Shown in pieces: positions 11,716 to 20,611 of a DNA stretch of 64,000 nt. The first letter of the stretch is position 1, and every line of letters starts with the position of its first letter. The notes below the pieces were generated by a model, which was given only the letters and a program-made list of their open reading frames with translations, had not been told where the DNA came from and made no database searches. Origin of the DNA: Deltaproteobacteria bacterium (lineage in GTDB: Bacteria > Desulfobacterota > Desulfarculia > Adiutricales > Adiutricaceae); contig JAISCZ010000130.1 of NCBI GenBank assembly GCA_031265205.1, positions 1-64,000 on the forward strand, in the 5' to 3' direction. Both the position numbers and the translations under genes were made by a program.

Positions 11716-11785
11716 TATTTCCCAGACGCCGAAAAATTTTGCTATACTTCTCTTATACCCCCCTATCAAGAGAATATTGGTTTTT

Positions 11786-12541
11786 ATGAACACTTGCCAA
11801 AAAGAATTAGCGTGTCTCCTGGCCGAGTCCAACGCCCTCTTTTTTGATGAGGGCCTTTCCCTCAAAGACGGAAGGCCTACCCCCTACTTTGTCAACTTCG
11901 GCCTCTTCCGCACGGGAAGGCTCATTTCCCTTTTGGGCAAAATCATGGCGGATTTCTTGGTCAACACCAAGACCGTGGACGATTTTGACGCCCTCGTGGG
12001 ACCCAGCTACAAAGGCAGCGCCCTGGCCGTGGCCACGGCCACCGCCCTGTGGACGGCGCACCAATCGGAAAAAGGCTTCGACTACGACCGCAAGGAGCTC
12101 AAAAGCCACGGGGAGGCCTCGCGGGCCTCCACGAGCTTTGTCACGGGAGCCCTCTACGACGGGGCTCGGGTCCTCATTATCGACGACGTGGCGACCACCA
12201 TGGGGACCAAGTTCGACATCCTCGGCCAGCTCACGGCCGAGGCCATCCACCGTGGCCACAGCTATTTCCCCGCCGGGGTGGCGCTTTTCCTGGACCGTGA
12301 GCAGACCACCGCCGTCTACGACGAAAACGGCCTTTTTATCCCCAACGTCAAGGGGCAAAACACCATCCGCAACTTCAAGGTCAAAACCGGCCTGGAGGTC
12401 CAAACCGTGGTCGGGATCAGGGAAACCGTCGAGTACCTCTACGGGGAAGGAATTCCCGTCCTCCAGCGCGGCGCTAAGGCCCCCCTTTCCAGAGACCGGG
12501 TCGACGAACTCATGGGCTATTTGGATGTCTACGGCCAATAA
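11786..12541 (+). CDS. pyrE: Orotate phosphoribosyltransferase
   Basis: Joins orotate to PRPP to give OMP in pyrimidine synthesis. The protein is 251 residues. It shows the PRTase signature VLIIDDVATTMGTK (PRPP-binding loop) and the family pattern of an N-terminal hood, here SLKDGRPTPYFVNFG, plus GPSYKGSALAVATA. It is somewhat longer than the common ~210-residue form, with a C-terminal helix after VEYLYGEG. ATG at 11786 is chosen; a TTG nine bases upstream is an alternative. No other pyr gene is adjacent. Confidence 0.88.
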   Translation: MNTCQKELACLLAESNALFFDEGLSLKDGRPTPYFVNFGLFRTGRLISLLGKIMADFLVNTKTVDDFDALVGPSYKGSALAVATATALWTAHQSEKGFDYDRKELKSHGEASRASTSFVTGALYDGARVLIIDDVATTMGTKFDILGQLTAEAIHRGHSYFPAGVALFLDREQTTAVYDENGLFIPNVKGQNTIRNFKVKTGLEVQTVVGIRETVEYLYGEGIPVLQRGAKAPLSRDRVDELMGYLDVYGQ

Positions 12542-12717: not shown

Positions 12718-12761
12718 AAAAAAAAGGCCCCCCGCTCACTCCAAAATTCGGGAGGCCTTTT
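12718..12761 (-). terminator. Rho-independent terminator after cobalamin riboswitch 1
   Basis: On the minus strand the stem is GGCCTCCCG (12757-12749) with CGGGGGGCC (12734-12726), with one G-U pair, followed by a run of eight T (12725-12718). The loop is 14 nt. It lies about 335 nt beyond the riboswitch 3' end, with no recognisable gene in between. Confidence 0.75.
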
Positions 12762-13095
12762 CTTACAAGAATAGATATTCTTGAAAACGCGAGAAGAACG
12801 GAGCGGCGTTCCGAAAGGAGAGCCTTCCTTTTTAAGAAAAAAGGAAACGCCAACCCGATCTTCTTTTTTCGTTTCAAGCTCGCCACTAGTTTCCACGAAG
12901 CTCGCGGCTCGACTTTTGACCTTACGAACCAGCGCGGCTGGGGAGGTAGGAGCCAGCCGGAGCCGGATGGCGTCTCGCTCGGGACTTCATGGAATTAGCG
13001 CTTGGCGCGCCTGGGTAAGTTGCCCAAGGGTTACCCTATTACCTGGGCTTTACGATAGCCTTACACCACGAGGCTGAATGCGCAAAGAATAGCTC

Positions 13096-13408
13096 GGCCA
13101 GGTTTTCTGACTCCCGGATCCTTCTACTCACGGAGCCTTCCCGGGGCGGTAACCCCCAGTGACCTCAAATGGAAACTGTCTTACGAATGATAAGCCCGAT
13201 GTTTCGCCAAGGGCTCTGACCTTAAAACTAACGCTTGGCGCGCACAAGGCCTTTTCCATTTGTCCGTTTTCGTCCCCGAACACAGCGGCGGGTCCGCGGT
13301 CGCTTTTACGACTCTTCCCTACTGCCGAACTGCCAATGCCGTTGGTAAGTGTACGATGGGCACCTCCTTAAAGAATTCGTTCAACCTTCCGACGAGATCT
13401 GGCCCTGA
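13096..13408 (-). ncRNA. Cobalamin riboswitch 1 (downstream copy)
   Basis: Read on the minus strand, the conserved cobalamin-aptamer blocks appear in order. GGAGGUGCCC is at about 13368-13359 and AGUAGGGAAG near 13323. The core GCGGACCCGCCGCUGU is at 13297-13282, followed by GGGGACGAA. CCACUGG is followed by GGGAAGGCUC near 13145-13132, then GGAUCCGGGAGUCAG and AAACCUGGCC at the 3' end. GGCCAG near 13406 can pair with CUGGCC near 13096 to close P1. It is longer than usual because of a variable stem (CGCCAAG/CUUGGCG). The next minus-strand signal is a terminator, not a gene. Confidence 0.8.
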
Positions 13409-13465
13409 AGAGAGCTCGCCTACCCTAATGGGCGCTTGTCCGTGGTCTTGTTAAGGTGGGGTCAG

Positions 13466-13506
13466 AAAAAAAAACCCCGAATTCACGAAAAAACGTGGAT
13501 TCGGGA
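13466..13506 (-). terminator. Rho-independent terminator after cobalamin riboswitch 2
   Basis: On the minus strand CCCGAATCCACG (13505-13494) pairs with CGTGAATTCGGGG (13487-13475) across a loop of six T, with one G-U pair, followed by nine T (13474-13466). It lies about 50 nt past the aptamer, the usual place for a terminator-type expression platform. Confidence 0.85.
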
Positions 13507-13554
13507 CGCCCTTTATCCTGAATCACCTTCCCGGACCACGGGGAAGAATGCTGA

Positions 13555-13752
13555 CAATACCATTGGTTTCTGGCTCCCGGATCTTCCTCCGACAAGCGCC
13601 TTCCCAGCCGATAGCGGCCAGTGGCTTAAAGATACCTCACATATCTCTTGTCGGGGTCCCCGGCTACAGAGGCGGGCCCGCTCTCGATTAAAACGAGATT
13701 CCCAAAATGAAAGCCCCAGCTTTTGGAGTGGCTCTTAGGCTTTCCTGGTTGC
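13555..13752 (-). ncRNA. Cobalamin riboswitch 2 (upstream copy)
   Basis: On the minus strand the blocks read UUUUGGGAAUCUCG, then GAGAGCGGGCCCGCCUCUGU (around 13684-13665), GGGGACCCCGACAAG, GCCACUGGCC, CUGGGAAGGCGCUUGUC, and GGAAGAUCCGGGAGCCAG with AAACC at the 3' end. This is the cobalamin-riboswitch order and spacing. The P1 closing helix is less clear than in copy 1. A promoter lies just upstream and a terminator just downstream, so this copy could switch the whole minus-strand transcript. Confidence 0.78.
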
Positions 13753-13762
13753 CATGAAAATC

Positions 13763-13790
13763 ACTATAACCCTTTTGACGAGAAAAACAA
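13763..13790 (-). promoter_or_regulatory. Promoter for the tandem riboswitch transcript
   Basis: On the minus strand TTGTTT (13790-13785) and TATAGT (13768-13763) are 16 bp apart. The implied start, near 13755, coincides with the 5' end of riboswitch 2. I found no similar promoter between the two riboswitches, so one transcript probably carries both. Confidence 0.55.
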
Positions 13791-14099: not shown

Positions 14100-14815
14100 C
14101 AGGCCCGCGCGGACAGGCCAGCGGACCTGGGCTCGTCTCAAGATTGAACGCGCTTGGGCGGCGCCACGGTCCCGCGGCGCCGACGCGTGGCCTCGTATCC
14201 GCCCCTGACGATAGATGGAAAAGTTCCAAGGGGCGGCGGGAGCGCGCCCAGGTCCCAACCCCGCGCTTCGGCGGCTCGCGGTCCAAGCGCCCGCGGCCGC
14301 GCCGGCGGTCTGGCCTCGCCTTAACTCGCTTGACCTTAGGTGGCCCCGCGGCGACGCGAGGCCGAGGACCCCGGCCCTGACGGTAAAGGCGAAGCTCCAA
14401 GGAGAGCCAGGAGCGCGGCCAGGTCCCACCCCCGCGCTTCGGCGGCTCGCGGTTCAAGCCTTCCCGGACGCGCCAGCGTCCGGGCCTCGCTCCAAACTCG
14501 CGTGACCTTGACCGCCCCGCGCCAAGGCGAGGCCGCGGAGGCCGCCCCCAACGTCAAGGGGTAACGCCCCAAGGGGAGACGGACTCATGGTTAGCCCCCA
14601 ACCCCGCGCGCCGGCGGCTCGCGCCCCAAGCCCTCCCAGGCGCGCCAGCGGTCTGGCCTCGCCCCAAACTCGCGGGACCTTGGCGCCCAGCGGCGACAGG
14701 CGCCCTCTAGCGAGTCCCGTGACGATAAGTGGCCAAGCTCCAACGGAAGGAGCGGCGCGCTCCGCGCGGCGCCCCACCGCGCCATTGGCCCAATCGCGGG
14801 AGCTTTAACGCGACG
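14100..14815. repeat. Noncoding tandem repeat, period about 172 bp
   Basis: At least three good units and degraded flanking ones. The anchor GGCGGCTCGCG is at 14270, 14441 and 14613 (spacings 171 and 172). A second anchor, CTGACG or GTGACGATAA followed by AAG and CTCCAA, recurs near 14203, 14376 and 14718, with a weaker copy near 14550. Each unit also carries GGTCTGGCCTCGC and TGACCTT. Long open frames cross it on both strands but no family is recognisable, and this composition leaves few stops. It abuts riboswitch DNA on the left and the restriction island on the right. Confidence 0.75.
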
Positions 14816-15617: not shown

Positions 15618-18176
15618 ATGCCCGAAAATGAAGCTACGGTTAAAATTAAAATCAACGAAATGCTTAAGAAAAGCGACTGGAGATTTATTCCGGACGAAAA
15701 TGGACCGGCCAACGTTTTCGTGGAAGCGCGAACAAACGTTAAATTCGCGCCTCTTGATAACAATGATTCTAACATTGAAACATTTAGAAAGGGCTTCATT
15801 GATTATTTGCTTACGGATAACAAAAATCGTCCTTTAATGGCGATCGAAGCCAAAGCGGCGGGAGTCGATCCTTTAATTGGCAAAGAACAGGCAAGGCGGT
15901 ACGCGTTAGCTGAAAATTGCCATTTCGTCGCTCTGTCAAACGGGGTTATCCATTATTTATGGGATATCAATGAAGGCAATCCCTATCCAATCTCACAATT
16001 TCCCACCCAAACTTCATTAATGGAGTATAAAAAAAACGTCGACGCTAAAAATGAATTCAACCATCAAAATATTGAAGCGGATTACCTGGCGACAATTATT
16101 AACCCCAATTATCAATTGGATCCGGATTGGATAAATGAGAATAGCCGCGAAACTTTCGTAAAAATGAACAGGCTTCGCTTTCTGCGCCCTTATCAGGTCG
16201 AAGCCATAAATTCTCTTCAGGAAGCCTTCGAAAACGGCAAACGGCGTTTCCTCTTTGAAATGGCCACGGGAACCGGGAAAACGACAGTCGCCGCTGGCGT
16301 TATAAAGTTTTTTCATACATCAGGATTGGTTAACAGAACAATTGTCTTCGTCGACCGCGTGTTGCTGCGCGATCAGTGCTTAAACGCTCTTATTGAGCTT
16401 TTATCCAAAGATTTAATTTGCCTTGACTTTGAGCGACATCATAACGATTGGCGTAAAGCTCATGTCGTGGTCGCCACCATCCAATCCTTGCTACGGCGCG
16501 ATAAATACAAGGACATATTTTCTCCGACGGATTTTAATTTTGTTATTTCCGACGAAGCGCACCGCACTATCTCAGGGTCCGCCAGACCTCTTTTTGAGTA
16601 TTTTGTCGGCTATAAACTTGGTCTTACCGCCACTCCAAAATCATATTTCCGCCAGATTGATAAAATAGAATTCCCCCAAGATAGCCCGATTGATATTGAG
16701 CGAAGGCTTCTCAAAGATACTTACGCGACCTTTGGGTGTGAATATTTAGAGCCTACTTACAGGTATACTCTCCTCGATGGCGTGAAAGACGGAAACCTCG
16801 TAAATCCAACTCGGGTTGACGCCAGAACTGAAATAACTAACGCTCTTCTTTCCGAAAGACGTTATCGCGTTCCGGTATTCAACGATAGCGGCGCAATCGC
16901 CGAGCTTGTTTTCGATCACAAAAAATATGAAAAAGTCTTTTTCTCTGAGCCTACGAATCGCCTTTTTTGTCAAACGTTTATGAAATACGCGTTAAGGGAT
17001 GAAATTACCGGCGAAATCGGTAAAACTATAATTTTTACGATAAATCAGAATCACGCGCGAAAAATTACCAAAATCCTAAATGAATTAGCCGCTCAAGCGT
17101 TTCCGGGAAAATACAGTTCCGATTTCGCTTATCAGATAACGTCGAATATTAAAGACTCGCAAGAATTAAGCATTCTTTTCGCCAATAATAATTTGGGCGG
17201 CTCGGGTAATTTTGATCCTCTTTACAAAACGTCAAAATGCCGCGTTTGCGTAACCGTTAGCATGATGTCAACTGGGTTCGATTGTGTCGACCTCTTAAAC
17301 GTCGTCTTAATGAAACCATTATTCTCGCCTACGGAATTCGTTCAAATTAAGGGGAGGGGAACTCGCGTCCATGATTTTCGGGGATTGGTGATGGACTCTG
17401 ACCTGAAAAAAAACGTTAAAAATCCCCGTAAAACTACTTTCAAGCTTATCGATTTTTTCGCGGTGTGTGAATACTTTGAAAAAGAATACGATTATGATCA
17501 AATTATTCAATTGCCTCCTATCCGCGTGAATAAAGCCGCCGCGACCGGATTATCCCAGGCGAAAAAAATCGTCGAGGGGACTTATGAAAATTTCGATCCC
17601 GATAAATTAACAGATCTTACTGAACTTAAAATTGGTCTTAGCGGGATGAGAATTGACAGGGAATATTTTAACTGTTTTATTAGCGCCGTTAAAAATGATA
17701 AAACAATCGCCGAAATGGTAACCAATGGGCACATTGATTCCGCGTCTGAATATTTATCCGAAAATTATTTGGCTAACGGCGAGACTAAGTTTGACAGGGA
17801 TACATTATCAAGATCTCTCTCCTTAGACCGCAAGGCGACTTTTGGAGAATTCCTACAATTAGCTTTCAATATAATCCCTGACATTAAAAACAAAGATCAA
17901 TTATTGGAGGAATATTTCACGACATTCGCGAATATCTACAATCCGCCTGAAATTGACGATATCCTCCATATCAAAAATTTCTTTAAAATTTATTTAACCA
18001 GCAAAGAATTCCGCGATATCCTCGACAATGAGGATTACTCGTCTCTCTTCGGTTTTCAGGCTTTTTCCACAAAAGACTACGCTAAGGTACCGCTCAAATA
18101 CCGCCAAATGATTCCTGATTTTATCAGATCATTTATTTTTCATGATCCTTTTGAGACATTTAGCTTTGAGGATTAG
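15618..18176 (+). CDS. hsdR: Type I restriction enzyme, HsdR translocase/endonuclease subunit
   Basis: 852 residues. The N-terminal PD-(D/E)xK nuclease has Asp62 in FIDYLL and Glu77/Lys79 in MAIEAKA. The SF2 motor has Walker A ATGTGKT (216-222), DEAH (312-315), TATP (337-340) and later motifs such as MMSTGFD and KGRGTR. A C-terminal helical region follows. In complex with HsdM/HsdS it translocates DNA and cleaves unmethylated foreign DNA. The ATG in use opens MPENEATVKIKINEML. hsdM-hsdS starts 2 bp after the stop. The gene is clearly AT-richer than its core neighbours, consistent with horizontal transfer. Confidence 0.93.
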   Translation: MPENEATVKIKINEMLKKSDWRFIPDENGPANVFVEARTNVKFAPLDNNDSNIETFRKGFIDYLLTDNKNRPLMAIEAKAAGVDPLIGKEQARRYALAENCHFVALSNGVIHYLWDINEGNPYPISQFPTQTSLMEYKKNVDAKNEFNHQNIEADYLATIINPNYQLDPDWINENSRETFVKMNRLRFLRPYQVEAINSLQEAFENGKRRFLFEMATGTGKTTVAAGVIKFFHTSGLVNRTIVFVDRVLLRDQCLNALIELLSKDLICLDFERHHNDWRKAHVVVATIQSLLRRDKYKDIFSPTDFNFVISDEAHRTISGSARPLFEYFVGYKLGLTATPKSYFRQIDKIEFPQDSPIDIERRLLKDTYATFGCEYLEPTYRYTLLDGVKDGNLVNPTRVDARTEITNALLSERRYRVPVFNDSGAIAELVFDHKKYEKVFFSEPTNRLFCQTFMKYALRDEITGEIGKTIIFTINQNHARKITKILNELAAQAFPGKYSSDFAYQITSNIKDSQELSILFANNNLGGSGNFDPLYKTSKCRVCVTVSMMSTGFDCVDLLNVVLMKPLFSPTEFVQIKGRGTRVHDFRGLVMDSDLKKNVKNPRKTTFKLIDFFAVCEYFEKEYDYDQIIQLPPIRVNKAAATGLSQAKKIVEGTYENFDPDKLTDLTELKIGLSGMRIDREYFNCFISAVKNDKTIAEMVTNGHIDSASEYLSENYLANGETKFDRDTLSRSLSLDRKATFGEFLQLAFNIIPDIKNKDQLLEEYFTTFANIYNPPEIDDILHIKNFFKIYLTSKEFRDILDNEDYSSLFGFQAFSTKDYAKVPLKYRQMIPDFIRSFIFHDPFETFSFED

Positions 18177-18178
18177 CC

Positions 18179-20611
18179 GTGATTAATGCCGATACCAAAA
18201 AGCTCCTAGACTTAGCTTTGAAAATTATTGTCAGTAAAATTTACGATCCTAAAACTCAATTGGAACAAATTATCTTGGCGATAATTTATAAAATCATTAA
18301 CGACAACGACGAACGCGATAAATTGCCAAACGGCGAGCGCTTAATTTTTAGCGGCGATTACGCAAAATATTCCTGGGATAAATTACTCAGCTCAACAATT
18401 TCCAGTTATGAAAGGGTCTCTCTTTATTCGGAAGCGCTCTCTAAAATTGGCGAAAACCCAAATATATCTCCTTTACGCAAAGAAATATTCAAAAATGTCA
18501 TTCTTCCATATAATGACCCTGAAATATTGCTTCGTTTCTTAAATATTATCAACGAATTTAAATCTTACGATGTCCGAAATTATAAAGACGTTTACGAATA
18601 TTTACTCTCGACTCTAAGTTCCAAGGGAATTATGGGCCAATTCAGAACTCCAGTCCATATCGCCGATTTTATCGTGGCTATTCTTGAGCCTCAAAAGGAC
18701 GAAATCACGCTTGATCCGGCGTGCGGATCCGGCGGTTTTCTGATTTCGGCGTATAAAAGAGTTTTGACCAATAATACCGACGATAATGGCGAGGTCACTC
18801 TAAATTCCGCGGAAATTTCGAGTTTGACGCGAAATATTATAGGATATGATATCTCGCCAGAAATGACGAGACTTTCGTTAATAAATCTATTTTTCCATGA
18901 TTTTAAAGAAGCCCAAATTTTTGAGTACGACACGCTTAAATCAGAGGCGAGATGGAACGAGCGAGCCGACGTTATTTTAGCCAATCCCCCCTACATAACT
19001 CCAACTGGGGGAATACGCGCGCATAATTTATTTAAAATGAAAGTCAATAAAGCGGAAGTGCTTTTTATTGAATACATTTTAAATCACTTAAACGAGGCGG
19101 GCAGAGCGGGAATTATCGTTCCCGACAGCGTAATTTACGATAGAAACGTGGATTACCTTAACATTAGGAAAGCGCTCGTTGAAGATTGCCTAATCGCGGT
19201 TATATCTTTACCCGCCGGCGCTTTTTTGCCTCATACCCGCGTTAAAACGTCAATTCTTGTTTTAGATAAAAAATTGGCGGAATTAAGCGATTTTGTCGCT
19301 TTTTTTGATATTAAAAATGACGGATTCGCGGTATCCGTCAACAGAACGCCTATTTCCCTCGACGATATTCCCGATACGCTGCGCTATGTCAAAACGTACA
19401 AGGAAAATATACGCGCGTCCGCCGATTTTAGCGATCATAATTCAAACGACTATCAATTAACTCCCAAGTCAGAAATTTTAACTCATCCGAACTACTCATT
19501 ATTCGCTCCCAATTACAAAGATAACGACAATCAAAAATTAAATTATTTAGTTCCATTCGCAAAAGTTTGCTCTCTGGAGCTTGGCGCGAAATTTAGCGTG
19601 AAACATGGCGTTTCTGGACCATATCCGATTATAGGATCCGGCGGCGTCTTAGGGTTCCATAACAATTTTATCGTTAAAGGCCCAGCAATTTTAATCAGTC
19701 GCTTTAGCCAATATTTTATGGTTAAGATTATTACCGAAAATTGCGTTCCGACGCGCGCCTGTTATTACGTAAAAATCAACGACGAGAATCTCACTAATTT
19801 TAAATATTTATTTTACGCGTTAAATAATATTGATTTTAAACCATTCATGGGCGGTACGGTTATACCGGCTTTAAATAAAGAAGAAGTCTACCGCAATATT
19901 CAAATTCCATTGCCACCTATCGCGATTCAAAAACAAATAGCGGCTGAATTGGATTGCTATCGCGACATCATTGACAACGCGCAAAACATTGTCAATAAAT
20001 ATCGTAAAACATTTACCGTTGACCGTAAATGGGAAAAGGTAAAATTGAATGACATTTCCGCTATCAGCTCGGACATAATCAATCCTTCCGTAAAATTCGC
20101 GAATACGTCATTTGGATATATCAATATCGGATCAATTAACAACTTGAATGGCAAAATTGTAAATATTCTTAAAATTATGGGAAATAACGCGTCAAAACTG
20201 ACGGCGTTATCTTTAAAACCGCGCGATATTTTATTTTCCACTATCAATCCGTTACTTAAAACATGCGCCTATCTAGACGATATCGACCAAAACACGGTCG
20301 CTTCTAGAAGACTCGCGGTTGTGAGAACCGTTTCCGATAAAATAATTCCTTATTTTTTGTATTTGTCCCTAATTACCGATTACGTAGCTGAACAATTGGA
20401 CGCGGAAATTATGGGGAGCACTATTAAAAACATAACTTTAAGAATGGTTAAAGCCATTGATATTTATATTCCCCCTCTTCCGATTCAGCGCCAAATAATC
20501 GCGGATATCAAGCGTGAAACAGCCATCGTCGCGCGGCAGGAGGATACTGTAGCGCATTTTGAAGATAAGATTTCGCGTACGCTTGAATTTTATCTTACAA
20601 ATAAATGTTAA
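18179..20611 (+). CDS. Type I HsdM-HsdS fusion, copy 1
   Basis: 810 residues. Residues ~1-420 are the adenine-N6 methyltransferase HsdM: GQFRTP (153-158), SAM motif LDPACGSGGF (178-187), FEYDT and catalytic NPPY (269-272). Residues ~440-600 and ~625-810 are two specificity (Methylase_S) domains, each ending in a PLPPI-type conserved block (IPLPPIAIQKQI and IPPLPIQRQI) and a coiled-coil. The usual separate hsdM and hsdS are thus one protein. GTG start with GAGG 7 bp upstream, 2 bp after hsdR. One chain could form one M-S arm; stoichiometry with HsdR is unknown. Confidence 0.9.
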   Translation: MINADTKKLLDLALKIIVSKIYDPKTQLEQIILAIIYKIINDNDERDKLPNGERLIFSGDYAKYSWDKLLSSTISSYERVSLYSEALSKIGENPNISPLRKEIFKNVILPYNDPEILLRFLNIINEFKSYDVRNYKDVYEYLLSTLSSKGIMGQFRTPVHIADFIVAILEPQKDEITLDPACGSGGFLISAYKRVLTNNTDDNGEVTLNSAEISSLTRNIIGYDISPEMTRLSLINLFFHDFKEAQIFEYDTLKSEARWNERADVILANPPYITPTGGIRAHNLFKMKVNKAEVLFIEYILNHLNEAGRAGIIVPDSVIYDRNVDYLNIRKALVEDCLIAVISLPAGAFLPHTRVKTSILVLDKKLAELSDFVAFFDIKNDGFAVSVNRTPISLDDIPDTLRYVKTYKENIRASADFSDHNSNDYQLTPKSEILTHPNYSLFAPNYKDNDNQKLNYLVPFAKVCSLELGAKFSVKHGVSGPYPIIGSGGVLGFHNNFIVKGPAILISRFSQYFMVKIITENCVPTRACYYVKINDENLTNFKYLFYALNNIDFKPFMGGTVIPALNKEEVYRNIQIPLPPIAIQKQIAAELDCYRDIIDNAQNIVNKYRKTFTVDRKWEKVKLNDISAISSDIINPSVKFANTSFGYINIGSINNLNGKIVNILKIMGNNASKLTALSLKPRDILFSTINPLLKTCAYLDDIDQNTVASRRLAVVRTVSDKIIPYFLYLSLITDYVAEQLDAEIMGSTIKNITLRMVKAIDIYIPPLPIQRQIIADIKRETAIVARQEDTVAHFEDKISRTLEFYLTNKC

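Follow-up and report, generated by a model that had tools for sequence, protein, structure and literature searches.

The stretch of DNA analysed here (64 kb, hereafter the window) carries on its minus strand a locus that is very probably a conserved noncoding RNA under vitamin B12 control; it is probably a regulatory RNA responding to the vitamin, not what is left of a lost gene. Our best reading, to which we give a probability of about 0.6, is that of a structured, family-specific noncoding RNA of ~ 1.03 kb whose ACCUCC loop would be the main effector; indeed, this invariant loop looks able to block ribosome-binding sites. Comparison among relatives shows an element that has its own promoter and a first aptamer followed by a terminator. 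Its long transcript contains a second aptamer, a complementary GGAGGU(G) motif lying 5' of aptamer 2, a covarying hairpin with an invariant ACCUCC loop and a final terminator, and by the same comparison it is noncoding. An earlier note on this DNA had described a promoter, tandem aptamers and two terminators with no reading frame and with pyrE on the opposite strand. This description is confirmed by the covariance-model matches and by reading of the sequence, with coordinates right to within a few tens of bases, while the interpretation that went with it is partly supported.

Anatomy of the locus

Both cobalamin aptamers are recovered above the curated cut-off of the Rfam family RF00174 (31.5 bits) on the minus strand, aptamer 1 at 13544-13727 (62.5 bits, E 4e-13) and aptamer 2 at 13079-13344 (35.2 bits, E 3e-5), the latter barely exceeding this threshold. 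The low score of aptamer 2 is due to its peripheral arm, which is enlarged by an insert of ~ 100 nt; its homologues in relatives reach 65 bits, and aptamer 2 itself scores 146.7 bits against a covariance model, R1, that was built on 16 copies of the element and whose E-values are rough. By the covariance-model measure both aptamers are classed as cobalamin riboswitches, and binding of cobalamin is predicted for them. Reading of the sequence agrees with an L5-L13 kissing loop, as P13 loops with CGUGG follow both aptamers and CCCGCC stands in L5, and a CGNGG loop is present in 16 of the 16 copies of alignment A3. No Rfam riboswitch other than these two was matched across the 64-kb window. Furthermore, a scan at permissive thresholds gave, besides Cobalamin, chance-level matches only, and Rfam release 15 holds no family for the element apart from its two aptamers.

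The transcript would start from a promoter read from the sequence at 13763-13790 (minus strand, as all features of the element), with a -35 box TTGTTT at 13790-13785, a -10 box TATAGT at 13768-13763 and a spacer of 16, and TTGA.../TATAAT-like boxes occupy the equivalent position in the relatives that were read. Aptamer 1 is followed by its P13/L13 hairpin CUUCCC-CGUGGUCC-GGGAAG (~ 13527-13546) and by a hairpin GAUUCAGGAU/GUCCCGAAUC at 13498-13524, predicted from sequence and fold (-7.7 kcal/mol) to be an antiterminator, which overlaps the 5' arm of terminator 1 and has equivalent UUCAGGAU..AUCCCGAA segments in many relatives. Terminator 1 itself, CCCGAAUCCACGUUUUUUCGUGAAUUCGGGG with a U run, lies at 13466-13506 (-16.6 kcal/mol) and is found at an equivalent position in relatives. 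It is followed at 13361-13367 by the GGAGGUG motif, which is Shine-Dalgarno-like, has no conserved ORF after it and is complementary to the loop at 12942-12948. The extended peripheral arm of aptamer 2 carries GGUCAGAGC at 13213-13221, and behind this aptamer come a P13/L13 hairpin (13057-13075), whose loop CGUGG is the L5 kissing-loop partner, and a hairpin GCCCAGGUAAUAGGGUAACCCUUGGGC (13022-13048) that is kept in the nearest relatives with some compensatory changes. The anti-Shine-Dalgarno hairpin, our proposed effector, is located at 12935-12959 with the stem CGGCUGG/CCAGCCG and the loop CUCCU-ACCUCC, the loop being invariant and the stem covarying. Further downstream, a pyrimidine-rich conserved motif AAGGAAGGCUCUCCUUUCGG (12811-12830), of the GGCUCUC type in most genera, could be an alternative partner of GGAGGUG, and the RNA would end at terminator 2 (12718-12761, read from the sequence and from relatives), whose loop UUUUGGAGUGAGC is kept in several genera. 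Both the GGCUCUC-type motif and the terminator-2 loop are absent from the copies of genus g6.

A generic promoter and terminator scanner returned neither the promoter of the locus nor terminators 1 and 2; these are credited because equivalents recur at matching positions in relatives. In the window the interval from aptamer 1 to terminator 2 contains no credible ORF, and pyrE (11777-12541, plus strand) is convergent with the B12 RNA.

Two sets of repeats were also observed. An 18-nt direct repeat (89%) has one unit behind the tail hairpin (12993-13010) and the other within the insert of aptamer 2 (13226-13243), and was not observed in the equivalent arms of the relatives in alignment A1. Upstream of the promoter, at 14223-14682, three tandem units of ~ 117 nt with a spacing of ~ 171 nt and 73-77% identity sit in GC-rich DNA without an evident gene.

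Distribution and conservation of the ACCUCC-loop hairpin

The element is present in 27 of the 37 genomes, and in nine of the 11 genera, of the GTDB family of the window, the Adiutricaceae. This family is described as termite-associated and its members as putative acetogens (PMC9137090); it includes Candidatus Adiutrix, from termite guts, and the pyrE relatives that bear names comprise one Candidatus Adiutrix MAG and, for the rest, MAGs of Deltaproteobacteria from termite guts. Copies were found by a survey of pyrE neighbourhoods together with a pattern search and model R1, the latter being used in place of the exact pattern GGGGACGA..GGTCAGAG, which missed the window's own copy and divergent ones. 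The 27 genomes comprise 26 fuller copies in 25 genomes, one copy truncated at a contig end beside pyrE (G045) and one single-aptamer copy (G012), the usual number being one per genome; all sequences are MAGs, and absence from the ten other genomes may partly reflect assembly gaps. The shared order is promoter, aptamer 1 with its P13, antiterminator-like hairpin UUCAGGAU..AUCCCGAA, terminator 1, GGAGGUG and aptamer 2, then P13, a hairpin, the ACCUCC-loop hairpin, the GGCUCUC motif (in most genera) and terminator 2, and GGUCAGAGC is found in the extended arm of aptamer 2 in most genera. The reduced copy G012 (L159) consists of a promoter, an aptamer-2-like domain and the ACCUCC loop on a stem of ~ 15 bp, and is the sole copy with a same-strand ORF close behind, for which a HicB-like reading is putative.

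In other families of the class all R1 matches remain below 46 bits. Phylum-wide matches reach 48-57 bits, and the six of these that were inspected were rejected as ordinary cobalamin riboswitches, lacking GGAGG and ACCTCC at the expected places; several of them visibly precede receptor-like genes. Within the family, genus g7 has a second, short terminator-like hairpin with the loop UUGGAGUG(U/A) past terminator 2; in genus g2 it follows an additional or degenerate aptamer unit (loci L112, L113, L114, L115, L116, L157; L073, L068). This hairpin is possibly a related small RNA.

ACCUCC corresponds to the core of the anti-Shine-Dalgarno sequence of 16S rRNA. In the element it is found 129-243 nt after the B12 box in all 26 fuller copies, where it forms a hairpin loop, usually with 4-5 nt preceding it in the loop, on a stem whose sequence varies among genera (GGCUGG/CCAGCC in the window, GCGU/ACGC in G016, GCGGCCGGG/CCCGGCCGC in G041 and GCCAG/CUGGC in G049). 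This hairpin is the most conserved feature of the tail. In the 26-row alignment 80.8% of the cells are paired against 63.7% in shuffles, and 25 cells are compensatory against 8.4, with none of 500 shuffles as high as observed on either measure; relatedness of the sequences inflates such covariation counts, which are not independent events, but that the stem changes around a constant loop is evident on simple inspection. Moreover, pairing falls to 21-56% when the register is slid, and pairing with the own partner exceeds that in all 20,000 between-genome permutations of the 3' arms. As read from these alignments, an invariant loop on a stem of variable sequence corresponds to the design of the anti-Shine-Dalgarno-loop sRNAs, a likeness in design and not in homology. 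The earlier note had taken the segment 12762-13095 as the effector part; this segment does hold the ACCUCC-loop hairpin, the most conserved feature outside the aptamers, but conservation extends to the whole transcript, including the GGAGGUG 5' of aptamer 2.

Indeed, 25 of the 26 copies carry GGAGG, at a distance of 195-258 nt ahead of the B12 box. The six pairs that GGAGGU could form with ACCUCC are nearly invariant, and a seventh pair (G-U, G-C or A-U) is available in 23 of 25. Given that invariance cannot show pairing, we can only infer that GGAGGUG pairs with the loop, and such pairing could wholly explain the conservation of the loop. The noncoding RNA would then be real while its loop would pair with the internal GGAGGUG only, the two forming a long-range pseudoknot by which a large aptamer-2 domain is closed. 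The output of the RNA would lie elsewhere: it might bind a protein or act as a B12 sponge, or the effector might be located in the terminator-2 loop UUGGAGUGAGC or in the GGCUCUC motif. We see an appreciable, though minor, chance of this. It agrees with the complementarity of GGAGGUG and UACCUCC over up to 7 nt, with their co-conservation in 25 of 26 copies and with the retention of the terminator-2 loop and the GGCUCUC motif in several genera. However, G010 and G012, two cases only, keep the ACCUCC loop on a paired stem without an upstream GGAGG, which speaks for the loop doing more than pairing internally, and genus g6 has the ACCUCC hairpin in every copy yet neither the terminator-2 loop nor GGCUCUC. 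In a global RNAalifold fold of the nearest relatives GGAGGUG is paired with the GGCUCUC motif. This is kept as a mere alternative pairing because the motif is not family-wide; two mutually exclusive partners of GGAGGUG would suit a switch.

Genomic neighbourhood and coding potential

In the window and six relatives (G000, G001, G011, G016, G021, G044, G045) the gene convergent with the RNA is pyrE. In G008 its place is taken by an MFS gene, and in genus g6 (L066, L111, L154, L155, L156) by FecCD/ATPase/Peripla_BP_2 (btu-like) genes, which in G005 separate the RNA from pyrE. On its other side, LOG-family and lytic-transglycosylase genes are often found upstream of it in g2, g7, g8, g10 and g11. 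In the window the place of these genes is taken at 15618-20611 (plus strand) by type I restriction-modification genes, namely a ResIII/HSDR_N-like gene of 852 aa and a methylase fused to specificity domains of 810 aa.

As the neighbours vary while the RNA persists, both antisense to pyrE as a general function and gene loss are excluded. A B12-regulated cis-antisense RNA against pyrE would fit the convergent arrangement in the window and its six relatives, but it is highly improbable, since other genera have a different convergent gene, or pyrE elsewhere, with the RNA unchanged, and in the window terminator 2 (12718) stops short of pyrE (12541). The analogy with the pocR antisense RNA drawn in the earlier note fails likewise, the convergent gene being pyrE, an MFS gene or btuCDF-like genes according to the species.

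The earlier note had also considered that the regulated gene was deleted, in which case the locus would be the remnant of the leader of a B12 gene. Tandem cobalamin riboswitches do normally precede B12 genes, and the six further RF00174 loci of the window's own genome (4.57 Mb in 187 contigs, at 85% completeness) by eye precede cbiK-like, two TonB-receptor-like, exbB/exbD-like, permease and cytochrome-biogenesis-like genes; against these, the geneless pair is exceptional for its genome. Nevertheless, a remnant has very little probability. Among the 26 fuller loci none has a B12 gene, or any gene under control of the element, behind the aptamers, and these copies persist together with the truncated and the reduced one. 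Furthermore, a remnant would decay, whereas the tail has been kept from genus to genus, with covariation and with a loop that is invariant throughout the family. At L006, one of the six other loci, the gene behind the riboswitch can be read as an NCS2-type purine/uracil permease, which would be uncommon in such a regulon.

Coding potential was assessed in the tail, taken from the B12 box to ~ 215 nt past ACCUCC, in eleven within-genus comparisons. Tail identity is 76-87% in aligned positions, values that are generous given the gap-tolerant aligner; substitutions fall evenly on all three codon positions, and the length of most gaps is not divisible by three. In pyrE from such pairs, which is 81-84% identical, changes are concentrated at third positions. 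No consistent start codon or frame is found behind GGAGG across copies, chance frames differing between species. On this pattern of substitution the element is without coding function. An unrecognised small protein under riboswitch control, either a leader peptide behind GGAGGUG or another small ORF, could draw on the likeness of GGAGGUG to a ribosome-binding site and on chance open frames in GC-rich DNA, but was rejected as scarcely probable given the missing codon periodicity, the many frame-breaking gaps, the inconsistent starts and the species-specific frames. A cobalamin-controlled RNA, the other suggestion of the earlier note, is strongly supported by conservation, covariation and the missing codon periodicity.

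Proposed mechanism and relation to known RNAs

Based on the anatomy of the locus and the usual behaviour of this riboswitch class, aptamer 1 would most likely be an OFF switch. Bound B12 would favour terminator 1 and leave a stub of ~ 300 nt; when B12 is scarce the antiterminator UUCAGGAU hairpin would form, polymerase would pass terminator 1 and the ~ 1.03-kb RNA would be made. The full RNA would then pair its UACCUCC loop with the Shine-Dalgarno regions of target mRNAs, silencing them in trans, and we put even odds on the loop being such a trans effector. The Wood-Ljungdahl pathway of acetogens requires corrinoid proteins. The targets might, as a speculation, be mRNAs of corrinoid-using enzymes in a B12-sparing response; no clear extended complementarity was found at the starts of three PF02310 (B12-binding-domain) genes of the own genome. 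Because terminator 2 ends the transcript and no gene lies in cis, aptamer 2 would affect only the RNA itself, and because it is placed between the loop and its internal complement it may shift the loop between a masked and an exposed state. That aptamer 2 gates the ACCUCC loop is a tentative proposal. More doubtful still is the complete allosteric RNA, in which aptamer 1 would set synthesis and cobalamin on aptamer 2 would set activity, with the loop either masked by GGAGGUG or free to silence corrinoid-dependent mRNAs.

Riboswitches are commonly viewed as gene front ends. The noncoding RNAs Rli55 of Listeria and EutX of Enterococcus have their length set by a B12 riboswitch, as proposed here, but they sequester an ANTAR protein through ANTAR hairpins; a search of the own genome with PF03861 (ANTAR) gave no match, but control genomes were equally silent. 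Rli55 is named in PMC8079631, which also presents AspocR of Listeria monocytogenes, where a B12 riboswitch and terminator control a long noncoding RNA that ends as a stub with B12 and reaches 1,400 nt without it. As in AspocR, a riboswitch terminator is followed by a noncoding transcript that ends in a terminator of its own. However, AspocR has one aptamer and is antisense to the neighbouring pocR, whereas the present element has two aptamers and the ACCUCC-loop hairpin, its convergent gene is not constant and, in the window, terminator 2 precedes that gene.

The loop has its closest counterpart in the alpha-r14 or 'cuckoo' sRNAs (NfeR1) of Alphaproteobacteria, in which an invariant anti-Shine-Dalgarno sequence is unpaired in hairpins on divergent stems and for which trans-silencing by these loops is established (PMC10746234). 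Both share an invariant loop on stems of differing sequence, but the RNAs are unrelated: alpha-r14 sRNAs have three CCUCCUCCC motifs and no aptamer, whereas here a single ACCUCC loop is carried by a ~ 1-kb RNA with two cobalamin aptamers and its trans action is putative. Tandem riboswitches with two expression platforms have been reviewed, and those arrangements act in cis on a gene (PMC9481103). They share with the element two same-ligand aptamers in series, but here the second aptamer is inside the RNA itself and no gene follows. This geneless second aptamer suggests direct ligand control of the activity of a regulatory RNA.

In the open papers searched, no description of the B12 RNA of the Adiutricaceae was found, and the riboswitch-controlled noncoding RNAs found described are from Listeria and Enterococcus only. 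If our reading is true, the Adiutricaceae would provide a conserved case of a riboswitch-controlled noncoding RNA from the Desulfobacterota. Control of its activity by the ligand would be testable in vitro on a single transcript, and the allosteric reading, if true, would make it a vitamin-sparing small RNA that reads its ligand twice.
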